Below are positions 4,902 to 16,027 of a stretch of DNA of 64,000 nt, one piece after another (positions within the stretch are counted from its first letter, which is position 1; every line of letters begins with the position of its first letter). The stretch is from Pseudomonas sp. W4I3 (GTDB taxonomy: Bacteria; Pseudomonadota; Gammaproteobacteria; Pseudomonadales; Pseudomonadaceae): contig NZ_JAUSXS010000001.1 in the NCBI RefSeq assembly GCF_030816195.1, positions 2,751,501 to 2,815,500 of the forward strand, read 5' to 3'. A program made the translations under genes and the position numbers. The notes under the pieces are model-generated. The model did no database searches. It worked only from the letters and a program-made list of their open reading frames with translations, and was not told the origin of the DNA.

Positions 4902-7900
4902 ATGACCGCCGTCGCGTTCAAGCGGTTCGCCACGATCCTCTGGTTGAGCCTATTGCCCATGGTCGCGATGGCCTTTGACGAGCCCACTGTGTTGCGGCTG
5001 TTGGGCCACTCTCGTATCGACCCTCCCATCGTCACGCTGCACGAGGACGACTGGCGCTGGTTGCGCGAACGGCGCACGTTGTTGATGGGGGTGTCCGCGC
5101 CCGATTACGCCCCCTTCGACCTGACCAACAACCGTGATGAGCTTGAAGGCATCACCGCCGATTTCGCAGCATTGGTCAGCCAGGCGCTGAATATCTCCAT
5201 TGAAGTTCGCTGTTACGAAACCCGCGATGAAGTGATCGAAGCCCTCAAGCGAGGCGACGTGGATTTCCTTGGTTCGGCCAATGGCTATGAAGCCGCTGAT
5301 CCGCAACTGGTCTTGTCCCGCTCCTACGCCAATGACCAACCCACCCTGGTCACCCGTATCAACGATAGCCAGGCGCTGAGTGCCGACTTGGCGGGCAAGC
5401 GCGTGGCAATGCTTTATCACTATCTGCAACCTGAAGTGGTAAGGGCCTTTTACCCCCGTGCCCAGGTGGAGCTGTTTTCCTCGGCCTTCGAGGCTATCGG
5501 CGCGGTGGCATTTGGGCGGGCCGATGTGTATCTGGGCGATGCCATCAGCGCCAATTACCTGATCAACCGAAACCAGCTCAATATCGTGCGCATGGCGGAT
5601 TTTTCTACCCTTGAAGTCAACCCGTTTGCCTTTGCGTTCACCCGGCAGAATACGCGGCTGCCGCCGATCATCAATGCGGCGCTGGAGGCGATTCCCGCCA
5701 GTGAGCAGATGGAAATATTGCGCCGCTGGAGCAGCGGCAACCTTGGCATTGTCGGCACCGGTCGGTTGCACCTGAGTGCCAGTGAACAACGCTGGCTCCT
5801 CAAGCATCCACGGGCCAAGGTCGCGGTACTGGACAACCTCCTGCCGCTGTCAGTCGTTGATGACCAGGGGCGATTCGAGGGGCTGAGCGCCGAGGTGCTG
5901 TCACGTATCAGCCTGCGCACCGGCTTGAAGTTCGACGTGGTGCGGGGCAGCTCGATACCGCGCCAGATCGAACAGGTCAGCGTCGGCGCGGCGGATATGC
6001 TGGCGGTCGTGACACCCAGTGCCGAACGCGCCGAGAAGGTGCGGTTTACCCGGCCTTACCTGACCAACGCCTTGGTGCTGATAACCCGAGGGGACGAACA
6101 CAGCCCGATCACGCTGGAGGATATGGTGGGTAAACGCCTGGCGATGATCGGCGGCAACGGGCTGCGCGACAAGATCGCGCGGGACTTTCCGGGCATCTTG
6201 TTCATCGATGTAGAGAGCGCGGAACAGGCGATGGCGATGGTGGCCAGGGGCGAGGCGGAGGGGGCAGTCAATTCGCTGATCAGTGCGCGCTATATGATCG
6301 CCCGGTATTACCGCGACCGGTTGCGCATCACTAGCACGGTCGGCTCCGATCCCGCGCGCATCACGTTCGGGGTCAATCGCAGTCAATTGGAGCTTTATTC
6401 GATCCTCGACAAGGCGCTGCTAAGCATCACTCCGCAGGAAATGGACGAGATGATTGCCCAATGGCGCAGCGAGGTGATTATCGAAGACAGTTACTGGCTG
6501 CGGCACCGCAATGTGATCATTCAGGGGTTCGGGCTGGCCGCGCTGTTGCTGATCGTCACGCTGAGTTGGGCTATCTATTTGCGTAGCCTGATCCGCAAGC
6601 GCGTCCAGGCCGAACGCGCCTTGAGCGACCAGATGCGCTTTATGAGCGTGTTGATCGACGGCACGCCTCACCCCATTTATGTGCGTGACCGGCAGGGCCG
6701 ATTGATGGCCTGCAACAACGCTTATCTGGACGTCTTTGGCTATAAGCTCGAAGACGTGATTGGCAAAACCGTGGTGCAAGCCGACGCCGACAACTTGCCC
6801 CAGGCTCAGTCGTTTCATCAGGACTATCTGCGCTTGATGGCAGACGGCGAGCCGCAGATTCACGACCGTATACTCAAGTTGCCCACTGGGGAGGCCCTGA
6901 CTATCTACCAGTGGATGCTGCCGTACCGCGATGGTGATGAGAAAGTGGTGGGCATGATTGCCGGCTGGGTTGACGTAAGCGAGCGCCAACAGCTGTTGGG
7001 TCAGTTGCAGGAAGCCAAGGACGAGGCCGACGCCGCCAACCGGGCCAAGACTACGTTTCTGGCGACCATGAGCCACGAAATCCGCACGCCGATGAACGCG
7101 GTGATCGGCATGATCGAGCTGGCCCTGAGGAATGCCGAGCAGGGCGTGGCCGACCGGGATGCCCTGGAGGTGGCTTCGGAGGCCTCGCGCGGCATGCTTG
7201 AGTTGATCGGCGATATTCTCGACATCGCGCGGATCGAATCCGGGCATTTATCGTTGACCTTGGAACCCGCCAATCCGCACGAGCTACTGACGTCGGTGGC
7301 ACGCGTGTTCGAAGGACTGGCGCGGGCCAAGGGGTTGGTGCTGCAGGTGGAACTGGATCCTTTGGTCGACCGCATGGTGCTGGTTGATCCACTGCGTTTC
7401 AAGCAGGTGGTGTCGAATCTGCTGAGCAATGCCATTAAGTTCACCCACAAGGGCCGGGTCGAGCTCGGCGCTCATGCGGCCTGCGAAGGGGATCACCTTG
7501 GGCTGAAATTATGGGTGCAGGACACCGGAATTGGCATCAGCGCCCAAGACCAGCTGCGCCTGTTCAGCCCCTTCATCCAGGGCAGCAATGGCGAGCAGTC
7601 TGCGCGCAGTGGCTCAGGCCTGGGATTGGTGATCAGCCGCAACTTGTGCGAAATGATGGGCGGCCGGTTGCACTTGAGCAGTGTGCTGGGGCAGGGCACG
7701 CGAGTAGACGTCACGTTGGCCCTGACTATGACGGATTTACTGCCGCAGGAGGGCGCGTCGGCGAATGCTGCGGTATCTGCCGCCCACGCCCTGAGTATCC
7801 TGGTGGTGGACGACTACCCGGCCAACCGGTTGCTGCTGGCCAGGCAGTTGAGCTTCCTGGGCCACCGTATCACCACGGCTGAGGATGGGGTTCAAGGGCT

Positions 7901-8525
7901 CGAGCTGTGGCGGGCCGGGCAGTTCGACGGCGTCATTACCGACTGCAACATGCCGTTCAAAAATGGTTACCAGTTGGCACAGGACATCCGTGCATTGGAG
8001 CATGAACGCGGCCTGGCGCCTTGCCTGCTGCTGGGGTTTACCGCCAATGCCCAGCCCGAAGAGGCCGAGCGCTGCCGGCAAGCCGGTATGGATGGATGCC
8101 TGTTCAAACCCACCGGGCTTGACGATTTGCGCGTGGCGCTGGCATCGCGCTCCACCTGCGTGCTCAGCGTTGAAGCAACGACGTTTGATTTGAGCACCCT
8201 GATCGTATTGGTCGGTGAGGATCATCACGCGCTTACCGAACTGTTGGTACCGCTGCTCGACAGCCTGGAGGAGGACCGGGCGCTGTTGCCGGCGCTGCAG
8301 CACAAAGCTGACTTCGCCAGGCTGCACGACCTTGCACATCGCGCCAAGGGCGGTGCGCGAATGGTCAAGGCGCAGGTGTTGATCGCTCGCTGTGAAGCCC
8401 TCGAGGCTGTCTGTGAGAGACAGGACCGCACCGCGCTGGAGACGGCGATCGACGGTGTGGGGGAAGCAATCATCGCTCTGCATGAGGGGTTGAGTACGCA
8501 TTGCAATCAGACGGCATCCCGATGA
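4902..8525 (+). CDS. BvgS/EvgS-type hybrid sensor histidine kinase
   Basis: 1207-residue unorthodox kinase. In order it shows a signal peptide (residues 1-24), two periplasmic solute-binding (SBP_bac_3, venus-flytrap) domains at about 50-280 and 290-530, a membrane helix near 548-568, a PAS domain (about 590-700), a HisKA domain with His725 in SHEIRTPMNA, a HATPase domain ending in GSGLGLVIS, a receiver with Asp1014 in ITDCNMP, and a C-terminal Hpt domain with His1146 in LAHRAKGG. This is the complete phosphorelay order of BvgS and EvgS. It probably feeds phosphate to the regulator encoded just upstream. Confidence 0.92.
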   Translation: MTAVAFKRFATILWLSLLPMVAMAFDEPTVLRLLGHSRIDPPIVTLHEDDWRWLRERRTLLMGVSAPDYAPFDLTNNRDELEGITADFAALVSQALNISIEVRCYETRDEVIEALKRGDVDFLGSANGYEAADPQLVLSRSYANDQPTLVTRINDSQALSADLAGKRVAMLYHYLQPEVVRAFYPRAQVELFSSAFEAIGAVAFGRADVYLGDAISANYLINRNQLNIVRMADFSTLEVNPFAFAFTRQNTRLPPIINAALEAIPASEQMEILRRWSSGNLGIVGTGRLHLSASEQRWLLKHPRAKVAVLDNLLPLSVVDDQGRFEGLSAEVLSRISLRTGLKFDVVRGSSIPRQIEQVSVGAADMLAVVTPSAERAEKVRFTRPYLTNALVLITRGDEHSPITLEDMVGKRLAMIGGNGLRDKIARDFPGILFIDVESAEQAMAMVARGEAEGAVNSLISARYMIARYYRDRLRITSTVGSDPARITFGVNRSQLELYSILDKALLSITPQEMDEMIAQWRSEVIIEDSYWLRHRNVIIQGFGLAALLLIVTLSWAIYLRSLIRKRVQAERALSDQMRFMSVLIDGTPHPIYVRDRQGRLMACNNAYLDVFGYKLEDVIGKTVVQADADNLPQAQSFHQDYLRLMADGEPQIHDRILKLPTGEALTIYQWMLPYRDGDEKVVGMIAGWVDVSERQQLLGQLQEAKDEADAANRAKTTFLATMSHEIRTPMNAVIGMIELALRNAEQGVADRDALEVASEASRGMLELIGDILDIARIESGHLSLTLEPANPHELLTSVARVFEGLARAKGLVLQVELDPLVDRMVLVDPLRFKQVVSNLLSNAIKFTHKGRVELGAHAACEGDHLGLKLWVQDTGIGISAQDQLRLFSPFIQGSNGEQSARSGSGLGLVISRNLCEMMGGRLHLSSVLGQGTRVDVTLALTMTDLLPQEGASANAAVSAAHALSILVVDDYPANRLLLARQLSFLGHRITTAEDGVQGLELWRAGQFDGVITDCNMPFKNGYQLAQDIRALEHERGLAPCLLLGFTANAQPEEAERCRQAGMDGCLFKPTGLDDLRVALASRSTCVLSVEATTFDLSTLIVLVGEDHHALTELLVPLLDSLEEDRALLPALQHKADFARLHDLAHRAKGGARMVKAQVLIARCEALEAVCERQDRTALETAIDGVGEAIIALHEGLSTHCNQTASR

Positions 8526-8649: not shown

Positions 8650-9072
8650 ATGCCGAACAAAGCACTGACCATCCTGATTGCCGATGATCTGCACTTGCAA
8701 CGGCTGTACATCGAAAAAATGCTCAACCAGTTGGGGTATTACCGGATTGTGCCGGTGCAAACCTTCGAAGAAGTCCAGATCCTCACCGACATTCCGGCCA
8801 GACCCTTCGATGTGCTGATCATCAATGCGGGGCTGGCGGCCCATGCGAGTGGGCCCCATCCTCAGGTTCGCCATGTACTGGTCTACGACAACCTTGACCT
8901 GGGTAACCCCGCCGGTGCAATGCCGGCGGTAGCGGTACGCCTGCCCGGCGTGCCAGACAACGTCAACCTCGAACACTTCATGGACATCATCGACCCACCC
9001 AAGGCCAGGACCGGCTTGCGGGTGCTGCCGTGGCTGAGGGCGTTGTCCCGCCAGCCGGTGGCCGGAGTCTAG
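8650..9072 (+). CDS. Degenerate receiver-domain protein
   Basis: 140-residue protein whose N-terminus reads as a receiver domain (ILIADDLHLQRLYIEKML) with the acidic pair at 12-13. The phospho-acceptor position at the end of strand 3 is Asn59 (DVLIIN), and the conserved Thr/Ser and Lys are not evident. It is therefore a pseudo-receiver and may act by binding rather than by phosphorylation. It lies 125 bp downstream of the BvgS-like kinase on the same strand and may belong to the same pathway. Its stop overlaps the stop of the convergent DAHP synthase gene. Confidence 0.72.
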   Translation: MPNKALTILIADDLHLQRLYIEKMLNQLGYYRIVPVQTFEEVQILTDIPARPFDVLIINAGLAAHASGPHPQVRHVLVYDNLDLGNPAGAMPAVAVRLPGVPDNVNLEHFMDIIDPPKARTGLRVLPWLRALSRQPVAGV

Positions 9073-10160
9073 GCCAGCGCTGGCGCCCTGTTGCTGTGTC
9101 CACGAAGGCGCTCGGCGGCACTGCGCAGCAACTGCTCGGTGCCCGCCCAACCCAGGCAACCGTCGGTCACCGACACGCCGTACTTCATTGACGGGCTCAG
9201 AGGTTGGCAACCCTCGAACAGGTGGCTTTCGAGCATCATGCCGATCAACGACGTATCGCCCTGCAAGCGTTGCTCCAGCACCTCGCTGAATACCGCCGGC
9301 TGGCGCAGTGGGTCTTTACCACTGTTGGCGTGGCTGCAATCGACCATGATGCGTGCCGCTACCTTGGACTTGGCCAGGTCTTGCTTCACTTGGGACACAC
9401 TTTGCGCATCGTAGTTTGGCCCACGGTGACCACCGCGCAGCACCAGGTGAGTGTCGGGGTTGCCAGGCGTCTGGATGATCGCCGGATGCCCCTGGCTGTC
9501 GACGCCGAAGTGGCGGTGCGGGTGCGAGGCCGAGCGCATTGCGTCACAAGCAATCGCGACGCCGCCGTCGGTACCGTTTTTGAAGCCTACGGGCATGCCC
9601 AGGCCGCTGGCCATTTCGCGGTGGATCTGCGATTCGGTGGTGCGTGCGCCAATCGCAACCCAACTGAGCAGGTCATCGAAGTAGCCGGCGGCCATGGGTT
9701 GCAACAGCTCGGTGGCGACCGGCAAGCCCAGGCGCAGCATTTCGCGCATCAGTTCCCGCGACAGGGTCAAGCCCGCGGCCATGTCATCGCTGCCATCAAG
9801 GTGCGGATCGTAAGCCAGGCCTTTCCAGCCAATGGTGGTACGGGGCTTTTCGACGTAGGCGCGGACGACCAGCAGCATCTGGTCGCTGACTTCAAGCGCG
9901 AGCTTCTTCAGATTGCGCGCGTATTCCATGGCCGATTGCGGATCGTGTATCGAGCATGGGCCGACAATCACCAGCAAGCGTGAATCCTGGCCATTGAGAA
10001 TGGCGCGTACGGCTTGGCGGTGGGCGTGCACCTGTTCATTGAGGAACGGGCTGAGGGGCAGTTGATGCTTGAGCTCCAGGGCGCTTGGCAGGCGCTGGGT
10101 CAAGGCTTCATTGGCACTGTCGAGCGTAGAGACGGGCAAAGCGGCGATAGAGGCGTTCAT
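9069..10160 (-). CDS. 3-deoxy-7-phosphoheptulonate synthase (DAHP synthase, class I)
   Basis: 363-residue enzyme that condenses phosphoenolpyruvate with erythrose 4-phosphate in the first step of aromatic amino acid synthesis. AroF/AroG-type motifs include VGPCSIHDP, EKPRTTIGWKG, GARTTESQIHRE and KNGTDG. The ATG at 10160 is chosen; a TTG two codons upstream is also possible because AGGA lies close to it. The gene has a leader of more than 450 bp with two small ORFs and an intrinsic terminator, which implies control by aromatic amino acid supply. Which of Phe, Tyr or Trp inhibits the enzyme cannot be told here. Confidence 0.95.
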   Translation of the reverse strand: MNASIAALPVSTLDSANEALTQRLPSALELKHQLPLSPFLNEQVHAHRQAVRAILNGQDSRLLVIVGPCSIHDPQSAMEYARNLKKLALEVSDQMLLVVRAYVEKPRTTIGWKGLAYDPHLDGSDDMAAGLTLSRELMREMLRLGLPVATELLQPMAAGYFDDLLSWVAIGARTTESQIHREMASGLGMPVGFKNGTDGGVAIACDAMRSASHPHRHFGVDSQGHPAIIQTPGNPDTHLVLRGGHRGPNYDAQSVSQVKQDLAKSKVAARIMVDCSHANSGKDPLRQPAVFSEVLEQRLQGDTSLIGMMLESHLFEGCQPLSPSMKYGVSVTDGCLGWAGTEQLLRSAAERLRGHSNRAPALA

Positions 10161-10205
10161 ATTCAAGGTTTCCTGGGCAAGCGGCGGGCGATTCCCGCGC
10201 CTGGC

Positions 10206-10355
10206 CTACTGGGGTGTTCGACAATTGGCCGTATTGGCCAGCGTTGGCTTGCCACCAAGAGGTGACCGATCGGAGGCGGCAGGCTGTCCCGAACGGGGCT
10301 GGCTAAATCGCCATGCAGCGCACGTGTCGTAGCGGTAATAGGTGGCGTAGTTCAT
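10206..10355 (-). CDS. Small ORF in the DAHP synthase leader (uORF2)
   Basis: A 49-codon ORF begins MNYATYYRYD and has a strong AAAGGAA ribosome-binding site upstream of its ATG at 10355. The first 17 residues hold four Tyr, one Trp and one Phe. It lies between the leader terminator and the DAHP synthase start, ending 45 bp before that start. It may be a second aromatic-sensing peptide or a translational coupler. No database family is recognised. Confidence 0.5.
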   Translation of the reverse strand: MNYATYYRYDTCAAWRFSQPRSGQPAASDRSPLGGKPTLANTANCRTPQ

Positions 10356-10401
10356 GTCGTGATTCCTTTAAGTGCTTGATCGAACAAAATTGTCAGGGCC
10401 T

Positions 10402-10441
10402 GAAAAAACAAAACCCCCGGTCGGGGAGCCGACCGGGGGTT
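10402..10441 (-). terminator. Intrinsic terminator, probable attenuator of DAHP synthase
   Basis: A perfect 13-bp GC-rich stem (10412-10424 with 10429-10441, 4-base loop) is followed on the minus strand by a T-rich tract (TTTTGTTTTTT). It lies 51 bp after the stop of the leader peptide and some 240 bp before the DAHP synthase start, as expected for transcription attenuation. On the plus strand there is no T tract, so it acts only toward the synthase gene. Confidence 0.88.
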
Positions 10442-10491
10442 AGATTTCTCTGGCAGGCGACCCCTTGAGTAGTGGGCGCCGATTTCAGGTA

Positions 10492-10626
10492 TCAGGCGCG
10501 CCAGTGGCTAAACCAATACCCAAAATAAAAGCTGACCAGTGCGCTCGAACCGTTCACACGGGTAGCCGACACCGAGCGCGAAGCGCGGGCAGCGAGGCAG
10601 ACCTGAGTGTAGGTGAGTTGCAACAT
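10492..10626 (-). CDS. Aromatic-rich leader peptide upstream of DAHP synthase
   Basis: A 44-residue ORF with a GGAG site 7 bp before its ATG ends in FYFGYWFSHWRA: seven aromatic residues (three Phe, two Tyr, two Trp) within ten codons, just before the stop. This run (about 10530-10501) sits about 60 nt ahead of the intrinsic terminator. Ribosome stalling there when aromatic aminoacyl-tRNA is scarce could favour an alternative fold and read-through. Found by reading the minus strand; it is too short for routine gene calling. Confidence 0.75.
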   Translation of the reverse strand: MLQLTYTQVCLAARASRSVSATRVNGSSALVSFYFGYWFSHWRA

Positions 10627-10773
10627 GGTATGGCTCCAAATGATGGGGGGAGCTTACTAGAGCTGCGCGGGTAGATTCAATCAGTAATTTCTATTGCGCC
10701 GAGGGACTTACGGCTATGGGGTGAGTATGGATATGCTGACCCCTCCAGCCACAAAGATTGCCAGGACGCGACC

Positions 10774-11523
10774 ATGACTGCCTTGACCCTTGCTGCGGCG
10801 CAAAGCCTTTCCATTGCAGGCGATGTACCGGCCAATATCGCGCGGCATCGGGTGTTCATGCAGGCTGCGGCCGCACAGGGCGTGCAATTGCTGGTGTTTC
10901 CAGAGCTGTCACTGACCGGCTATGAGCCTGCGCTGGCAGCCGACTTGGCCATTGCCCCTGAATCGCCAGTGCTGACCCCGTTACGTGAGATGGCGCGCAA
11001 GCTGCGGTTGACGGCGGTGGTGGGTATGCCTGTGCGCTTGGCGCCAAAGGCGGACGTAATGATTGGCGCCTTGGTGCTCGGGGCTGACGGCTCATTGGCG
11101 GTCTACACCAAGCAGCATCTGCATCCGGGCGAAGAAGTTGCGTTTGCAGCGGGGCAGGGCGGTGCAGTGCTTGAATTAGGGAGTGATCGTATTGCGCTGG
11201 CCGTCTGCGCTGACTTTTCCCATGCCAGCCATCCGCGTCAAGCTGCGCTGGCAGGCGCCAATATCTACGCCGCCGGGGTATTGATCAGCGAGAGTGGCTA
11301 CGCAACGGACAGCGCGTTGCTCCAGCAGTACGCGGTCGAGCATCAGCTTCTGGTATTGATGGCGAACCACGGTGGCCCTTCGGGTGGCTGGGTCTGTGCT
11401 GGCCGCAGCGCGATATGGGCCGACGATGGCCGTTTGCTTGTGGCGGTACCCGGCGTCGGCGAAGCGCTGGCGATTGCCCGTCGCGATGGCGAGCGCTGGG
11501 TTGGGCACGTGGTGACTGTGTAA
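10774..11523 (+). CDS. Carbon-nitrogen hydrolase (nitrilase superfamily)
   Basis: 249-residue cytosolic amidase-like enzyme. The catalytic triad is visible: Glu44 in FPELSLTGY, Lys113 in TKQHLHPGE and Cys145 in AVCADFSH. The substrate cannot be assigned. The next gene, a GNAT acetyltransferase, starts one base after the stop codon, so the two are surely cotranscribed and may share an amide or amine substrate. Confidence 0.88.
   Translation: MTALTLAAAQSLSIAGDVPANIARHRVFMQAAAAQGVQLLVFPELSLTGYEPALAADLAIAPESPVLTPLREMARKLRLTAVVGMPVRLAPKADVMIGALVLGADGSLAVYTKQHLHPGEEVAFAAGQGGAVLELGSDRIALAVCADFSHASHPRQAALAGANIYAAGVLISESGYATDSALLQQYAVEHQLLVLMANHGGPSGGWVCAGRSAIWADDGRLLVAVPGVGEALAIARRDGERWVGHVVTV

Positions 11524-15951: not shown

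Positions 15952-16027
<76 letters not shown>

Follow-up and report, generated by a model that had tools for sequence, protein, structure and literature searches.

Amino-acid attenuators of the his, trp and phe type are characterised by a run of regulatory codons, by alternative 2:3/4:5 and 3:4/5:6 pairings, and by a terminator with a U-tract. The leader described here, which precedes an aroF-type DAHP synthase gene of Pseudomonas sp. W4I3, has the same codon run, alternative pairings and U-tract terminator. It differs from these attenuators in that Phe, Tyr and Trp codons are gathered in one block and in that a second leader ORF (ORF2) follows. In Bacillus subtilis, the rtpLP leader reportedly carries two successive layers acting on the same tRNA, a T-box and then a short ORF with its stop by the next Shine-Dalgarno (SD) sequence; completed translation of the short ORF is said to hinder the next gene. 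Like rtpLP-rtpA, the present leader would comprise two layers sensing the same tRNA, and the stop of ORF2 is near the SD sequence of the next gene. Unlike in rtpLP-rtpA, layer 1 would here be a ribosome-read attenuator and not a T-box, both steps being ribosome-read; ORF2 also exceeds rtpLP in length, mixes Tyr, Trp and Phe codons, and is accompanied by a hairpin bridge and by an RNA element of pause-like character. As far as the title cited in PMC11255114 goes, rtpLP-rtpA is a precedent for the tandem principle. In Salmonella, several short ORFs of one operon, mgtM, mgtP and mgtQ, act on transcription and translation (PMC8092293, in an excerpt); unlike in the present leader, the signals differ and mgtQ is located between two genes.

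The leader corresponds to a catalogued RNA. It is the same element as RF00627 (P15), an Rfam entry of type Gene named 'Pseudomonas sRNA P15', and matches it over its full 119 positions with 111 bits against a gathering cut-off of 70 bits. Whereas RF00627 is catalogued as an sRNA, it is read here as a cis attenuator, of which the 5' part is coding and after which ORF2 is found. Rfam and Wikipedia reportedly place P15 upstream of DAHP synthase. A study of P. aeruginosa (PMC2375449, in an excerpt) lists P15 as one of the sRNAs that Livny et al. had detected. In the open-licence PMC literature, we found no paper reading P15 as an attenuator or describing ORF2; on a term search, the main text of neither PMC2965389 nor PMC8297930, two genome-wide studies of attenuators and 3' ends, mentions P15, DAHP or aroF. 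We propose, with a probability of about 60%, that this leader is a two-layer sensor of aromatic aminoacyl-tRNA placed before one DAHP synthase gene. The proposal would assign a function to a catalogued sRNA common among pseudomonads and would point to a gating of the entry to the shikimate pathway in these bacteria.

Organization of the locus

The window, i.e. the whole stretch of 64,000 nucleotides that was analysed, contains the following features.

9069-10160, minus strand: aroF-type DAHP synthase gene, class I (TIGR00034, 439.9 bits; NF009395, 523.7 bits; PF00793)
10174-10171, minus strand: SD sequence of aroF, AGGA
10178-10203, minus strand: hairpin bridging the ORF2 stop and the aroF SD sequence
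10206-10355, minus strand: ORF2, second leader ORF, 49 amino acids, with aromatic codons at residues 3-17 and none later
10251-10295, minus strand: pseudoknot-like element in ORF2
10295-10289 and 10273-10267, minus strand: stem A of this element, CGTTCGG/CCGATCG
10280-10275 and 10256-10251, minus strand: stem B of this element, GCCGCC/GGTGGC
10304-10313, minus strand: near-invariant UGG-CGA-UUU-A inside ORF2
10368-10364, minus strand: SD sequence of ORF2, AAGGA, 8 nt 5' of the ATG
10412-10441, minus strand: intrinsic terminator, segments 5:6 (13 pairs, 4-nt loop, U-tract)
10414-10534, minus strand: RF00627 (P15), attenuator segments 1-6 (111 bits, E 7.2e-22)
10492-10626, minus strand: ORF1, leader peptide of 44 amino acids with the aromatic block FYFGYWF
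10637-10634, minus strand: SD sequence of ORF1, GGAG
10651-10680, minus strand: candidate promoter TTGAAT-N18-TAAGCT, a consensus match only

The ORF1 peptide reads MLQLTYTQVCLAARASRSVSATRVNGSSALVSFYFGYWFSHWRA and has 7 aromatic residues within FYFGYWFSHW. The terminator (10441-10412, minus strand) is followed by TTGTTTTTTC, and 45 nt separate ORF2 from aroF. All the elements reported in a first-pass annotation of this DNA, namely the aromatic-rich peptide of 44 residues, the strong terminator and ORF2 with its own ribosome-binding site (RBS), are present where it had placed them. This observation is confirmed, and given the distribution of P15 the pattern is more than chance. The source genome contains a single P15 and, counting this aroF, three PF00793 genes. 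A search for a second ORF2 copy in that genome gave nothing convincing (next best E 0.054), neither ORF1 nor ORF2 belongs to a known protein family (Pfam and NCBIfam, E up to 1), and a terminator scan of the window found none 3' of ORF2. A strict promoter scan of the window found no promoter 5' of ORF1; a TTGANN-N16-19-TANNNT motif is present there in 113 of 153 loci, with a spacer of 18 in 93 and of 17 in 20.

ORF1, P15 and transcription attenuation

P15 is matched in 182 of 199 genomes of the same genus and in 156 of 198 genomes sampled from the same family, where 14 of 19 genera are represented. In the order, 21 of 244 sampled genomes have a match; 12 of these 21 lie outside the family and 3 of the 12 are above the cut-off. 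A subset of the Pseudomonadaceae matches, 154 loci (84 + 70) picked across the score range, was examined. The ORF1 core with GYW is found in all 154, so the non-conservation of the aromatic run among relatives, which would have told against the annotation, was not seen. Of the 4323 residues that precede the block in 145 distinct ORF1, a fraction of 0.015 is aromatic, as against 0.816 within xxxGYW (six residues); the N-terminal part of ORF1 is poorly conserved. In one locus, L148, the block is GYWWFSH, with one Trp codon extra.

Genomes devoid of P15 offer a comparison. In 36 of them (the listed ones, 22 further P15-negative genomes of the family being left out), the DAHP synthases are 49-54% identical to that of the window, apart from a partial additional match that reaches 59%. 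The P15 and ORF2 motifs are absent near paralogous DAHP synthases (L090 and L091) and in 30 loci from P15-less genomes. The lower identity of these synthases, together with their motif-free loci, indicates that in this sample the element and the gene travel together. A few aromatic-dense short ORFs do occur near DAHP synthases in loci lacking the motifs.

The pairing of the leader was modelled by equilibrium folding of truncated RNA, on which a ribosome footprint of 28 nt was advanced codon by codon. This position scan covered 148 of the 154 loci, the terminator of the other 6 being unrecognised by the pattern. Over these 148 loci, with the A-site codon numbered from the core Tyr, upstream RNA engages the terminator 5' arm and loop in a mean of 7.9-8.8 pairs at codons -4 to +2, which in the window correspond to FYFGYWF, and in 6.4 when the ribosome is on the Ser past the aromatic block. 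Off the block, capture falls to 4.5-4.7 pairs (codons -7 to -5, +4 and +5) and, for a ribosome at the stop, to 3.9. Capture exceeds 4 pairs in 147-148 of the 148 loci at codons -4 to +3, compared with 91-93 before the block, 97-99 after it and 88 at the stop; in the model, block and other positions thus differ in degree. For the window itself, 10 pairs are captured in the block and 4.3 at the stop; on the upstream side the edge is blurred, codon -6 giving 8.3 pairs and codon -5 giving 8.4. A first metric for the terminator arm had pointed the other way, with a paired fraction of 0.70 for a ribosome at the stop and 0.62 for one in the block, because upstream RNA was allowed to pair through the ribosome; it was discarded.

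Folding with named segments could be carried out for 130 loci, 24 of the 154 being dropped as segments or terminator were unrecognised. A modelled stall at Tyr leads to 2:3 and 4:5, a ribosome at the stop to 3:4. As compared with the stop, 4:5 is higher and 3:4 lower at Tyr in 127 of 130 loci each. With the ribosome at Trp, 125 loci have a higher 4:5 and 127 a lower 3:4 (one reversed); with the ribosome at Phe, 119 have a higher 4:5 (2 reversed) and 120 a lower 3:4 (4 reversed). The ribosome-free leader folds into 3:4 in the model, which favours termination. The antiterminator that the annotation had asked for is therefore predicted: it would exclude the terminator and is favoured, at equilibrium, by a ribosome on the regulatory codons. 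The annotation had also suggested looking for covarying stems across Pseudomonas. Covariation across loci is clear for the terminator, where the own partner is more stable than a swapped one in 72 of 92 distinct loci; there is little of it for 4:5 (54 of 93) and 2:3 (48 of 93), and none for 3:4 (41 of 93).

In sum, an ORF with regulatory codons is located just 5' of an intrinsic terminator, recognised in 148 of 154 loci, and the claim of an attenuator is backed by the conservation of P15 and by the scan of stalled-ribosome positions. Judged on sequence, ORF1 and P15 almost certainly form a ribosome-mediated transcription attenuator. A T-box-like reading was considered but not adopted. Its mixed Phe/Tyr/Trp block is unusual for an otherwise ordinary ribosome-read attenuator, and a response to several amino acids, as had been suggested, would follow from these mixed codons.

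Conservation and coding pattern of ORF2

ORF2, with its own SD sequence, ATG and reading frame, is found in all 154 Pseudomonadaceae loci. Trp-Arg-Phe (WRF) is encoded in 150 of them; the divergent ones (L123, L126, L127 and L143) were read by hand. Up to WRF, the aromatic fraction is 0.388; after it, the fraction falls to 0.0077 (28 of 3637 residues; 138 distinct peptides), residues 1-150 of AroF, taken for comparison, giving 0.028. The identities of the Tyr and Phe residues drift while the aromatic enrichment persists. Among 185 distinct peptides, the first 22 residues contain Tyr in 185, Phe in 185 and Trp in 184. As predicted from the sequence only, ORF2 thereby shares with rtpLP the layout of a short ORF with its regulatory codons away from the stop.

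Constraint is also seen on the nucleotides. TGG, CGA and TTT are each present in 89 of 89 long-ORF2 loci, the type to which the window belongs, and CGATTTA is found in 150 of the 154 loci; in the long ORFs of the window, CGA makes up 7.7% of Arg codons. Synonymous diversity in the 89 long-ORF2 loci is about 0 at many ORF2 codons, compared with 0.18-0.55, depending on the residue, in aroF; some ORF2 codons vary freely. Programmed frameshifting at CGA-UUU-A was considered and rejected: no standard slippery heptamer is seen by eye, and aroF is not in a fixed frame with respect to ORF2.

The pseudoknot-like element starts 15 nt past CGA and has loops of 8 and 10 nt. Judging from the footprint size, it would start at the leading edge of a ribosome with the Arg CGA codon in the P site. 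The 15-8-10 nt spacing is kept in 89 of 90 long-ORF2 loci and in 34 of 34 loci of a second family (f36), for which the 15 nt and the 5' arm of stem A were preset in the search pattern. Stem A is paired in each of these 34 f36 loci; most Pseudomonas loci show a single mismatch there, which is U.U in the window. In stem B, a G.U pair of Pseudomonadaceae is A-U in f36; most pairs of the element are invariant. The fraction of paired cells is 0.92, against 0.23-0.52 with one arm slid, a comparison in which 20 f36 loci stand in the wrong register. The element is absent from short-ORF2 loci, which retain the ATG, the frame, the aromatic codons and the stop. The long-ORF2 locus with another spacing, L051, has GGCGCC as stem B and a second GGCGCC three nt on, as if the pairing had been rebuilt with other letters.

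A search with the ORF2 pattern returned 78 stretches in named genomes, every title being Pseudomonas or Stutzerimonas. Of the 75 loci that could be parsed, 69 carry the ORF1 core on the upstream side by a strict motif, and in 64 a DAHP synthase motif follows ORF2. The remaining 11 comprise one without a downstream gene in reach and 10 whose downstream gene is unmatched by the motif, 9 of these 10 genes having N-termini like those of the confirmed ones. Two contigs of the assembly of Stutzerimonas chloritidismutans AW-1 (L194 and L255) carry an identical ORF2 peptide, with a DAHP synthase on each, which may reflect either a duplication or a redundant assembly.

Outside Pseudomonadaceae, 12 P15-like loci were available, with ORF2 in 5 of 5 from f36 and in 4 of 7 from a further family, f43; in two of the f43 loci (L281 and L283), ORF2 has no Trp-Arg-Phe. 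Three f43 loci (L278, L282 and L284) keep the P15-like attenuator and have no recognisable ORF2 between terminator and aroF; they provide a natural comparison for the contribution of ORF2. With at most one mismatch, the ORF2 pattern is found in 92 of 151 f36 genomes, a reversed control pattern in 6 of 151. In 29 distinct ORF2 peptides of f36, aromatic residues amount to 26.5% up to Trp-Arg-Phe and 0.8% after it. L285 and L296 are one genome.

The ORF2 stop, the aroF ribosome-binding site and the proposed mechanism

The distance between the ORF2 stop and the aroF SD sequence, measured in 149 of the 154 loci, is 31.3 ± 3.2 nt, of which 2.2 ± 1.8 nt (range 0-15) lie outside the fold. The bridging hairpin has an uninterrupted stem of at least 4 bp in 147 of the 149 loci, with 45 distinct 5' stem strings, and its z value against mononucleotide shuffles is below -1 in 143 (-1.6 in the window). 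In one genus (g7), there is no hairpin and the stop stands 3 nt before the SD sequence in 3 of 3 loci. In f36, 17 of 34 loci have, by eye, GGAG or GAGG among the final 12 nt of ORF2; automatic calls of the aroF start, which often fell on an in-frame codon further upstream, were left aside.

We propose the following mechanism. With ample Phe-, Tyr- and Trp-tRNA, the ribosome at the ORF1 stop would cover segment 2, 3:4 would pair and the terminator 5:6 would form. If any of the three were short, the ribosome would wait in FYFGYWF, 2:3 and 4:5 would form and RNA polymerase would read through. The read-through RNA would carry ORF2, of which the first part needs Tyr, Trp and Phe anew. A ribosome on ORF2 may then wait at YY..W-CGA-UUU, with the pseudoknot-like element just ahead in part of the family; otherwise, it would cross the nearly aromatic-free tail to the stop set against the aroF SD sequence. 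Arrival at this stop, and hence the charging of aromatic tRNAs, would be coupled to initiation on aroF. In favour of ORF2 as a sensor are the placing of its aromatic codons, the constraint on its nucleotides and the position of its stop. For layer 2, we infer both the mechanism and the sign of ORF2: the geometry suggests that what counts is ribosomes reaching the ORF2 stop, and the codons of ORF2 suggest that reaching it depends on aromatic tRNA charging. That ribosomes completing ORF2 hinder the start of aroF appears slightly more likely than reinitiation, because only hindrance shares the sign of layer 1. If true, ORF2 stacked on the attenuator would give two serial readings of aromatic tRNA charging for aroF. 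ORF2 could even stand for a new class of sensor, one that reads amino acids at the level of translation, predates the genus and occurs in at least three families. Such a sensor would combine Tyr, Trp and Phe codons, a near-invariant UGG-CGA-UUU pause, often a pseudoknot at the leading edge of the ribosome, a nearly aromatic-free tail and a hairpin-held stop; we put this forward tentatively, at somewhat less than even odds.

Folding was used to look at how a ribosome on ORF2 affects the aroF RBS. In 60 sampled loci, the fold in the gap persists at all ribosome positions tried except the stop, where it is covered by construction. No drop in SD pairing is seen with the ribosome at the ORF2 stop. 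The cost of opening the RBS, from the SD sequence to AUG+3, was computed for 25 of 60 short-ORF2 and 25 of 89 long-ORF2 loci. In short-ORF2 loci, it is 4.7 kcal/mol for a ribosome at W, as against 6.1 for one at the stop and 6.2 for ribosome-free RNA, a modelled difference of the sign that hindrance would give. In long-ORF2 loci, the corresponding values are 6.0, 6.4 and 6.2, and in the window 3.5, 3.4 and 3.7. Over a wider region, the cost drops on average by 1.8 kcal/mol in 149 loci with the ribosome at the stop (negative in 111), by 1.0 at W and by 0.5 at Tyr, a modelled pattern that would speak for positive coupling. For the window, the changes in this cost are +0.9 with the ribosome at the stop, +0.5 with it at W and -1.4 with it at Tyr. 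Sequestration of the RBS by ORF2 structure is therefore not the mechanism that we favour for the window, the effect of position being almost nil in long-ORF2 loci, modest (about 1.5 kcal/mol) in short-ORF2 loci and mixed over the wider region. A ribosome that melts the hairpin at the stop may also miss a 30S subunit on an SD sequence 31 nt away, so that occlusion is not forced by the geometry in Pseudomonas. The second layer that the annotation had suspected, as translational coupling or a second sensor, thus holds in that ORF2 is kept, is aromatic-rich in its first part only and is set against the aroF RBS; as to how it would work, folding gives almost no effect of an ORF2 stall on this RBS in loci of the window type and a modest one in short-ORF2 loci.

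Other explanations, which are not mutually exclusive, have to be weighed against the two-layer reading. ORF1 and P15 could be the sole sensor and ORF2 a translated coupling ORF, allowing reinitiation across the hairpin, with inherited or incidental aromatic codons. The layout is that of coupled genes, the stop and the SD sequence being held within about 2-3 nt by the hairpin or directly, and overlapping in f36; moreover, the wider-region opening cost is lowest, by a mean of -1.8 kcal/mol and with 111 of 149 values negative, with the ribosome at the ORF2 stop. Nevertheless, aromatic residues amounting to 39% before WRF and 0.8% after it, with Tyr and Phe drifting, are hard to account for without codon sensing, and the near-invariance of W-CGA-UUU also argues against incidental codons. 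We consider this possibility rather unlikely, though of real weight. The same constraint on the RNA within ORF2 would suit a role in Rho-dependent termination or mRNA decay, in which a ribosome at W-R-F would shield or expose a putative site for Rho or RNase E located 3' of the terminator and 5' of aroF. GAUUU conforms to a consensus for RNase E. Such a role leaves the spacing of stop, hairpin and SD sequence unexplained and seems distinctly improbable.

The invariant blocks of ORF2 and the identical 15-8-10 spacing in two families, along with the paired fraction of 0.92 against 0.23-0.52 for a slid arm (20 f36 loci being in the wrong register there), could also mean that the region is chiefly a structured RNA, such as a ligand- or protein-binding pseudoknot, with a secondary reading frame. 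This view has a very low probability: short-ORF2 loci lack the element yet retain the ATG, frame, aromatic codons and stop, most of its pairs are invariant, and stem A is mismatched in most Pseudomonas loci. Least probable of all is an action in trans, by P15 as a small RNA or by the ORF1 and ORF2 peptides, in spite of the Rfam label Pseudomonas sRNA, of the presence of P15 in the set of Livny et al. (excerpt of PMC2375449) and of the description of a trans-acting leader peptide, peTrpL (in the part consulted of PMC7298713). The gene after P15 has an AroF-like N-terminus by eye, and a DAHP synthase motif follows in 64 of 75 named loci; the 3' end of P15 is the attenuator terminator, and the N-terminal part of ORF1 is poorly conserved.

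Under the two-layer reading, ORF2, as a deeply conserved leader ORF, would be a test case for serial sensing at transcription and translation within a single mRNA. Engineering for aromatic chemicals targets DAHP synthases; the leader would then need to be removed or rewired. As to the surroundings, the sole other Rfam match in the window is a tRNA gene (15952-16024, plus strand). Past the 3' end of aroF, an ORF of 1207 amino acids (4902-8525, plus strand) resembles a hybrid sensor kinase by eye. Divergent from the leader, with its start about 150 nt from ORF1, is an ORF of 249 amino acids (10774-11523, plus strand), presumably a carbon-nitrogen hydrolase from its resemblance by eye.
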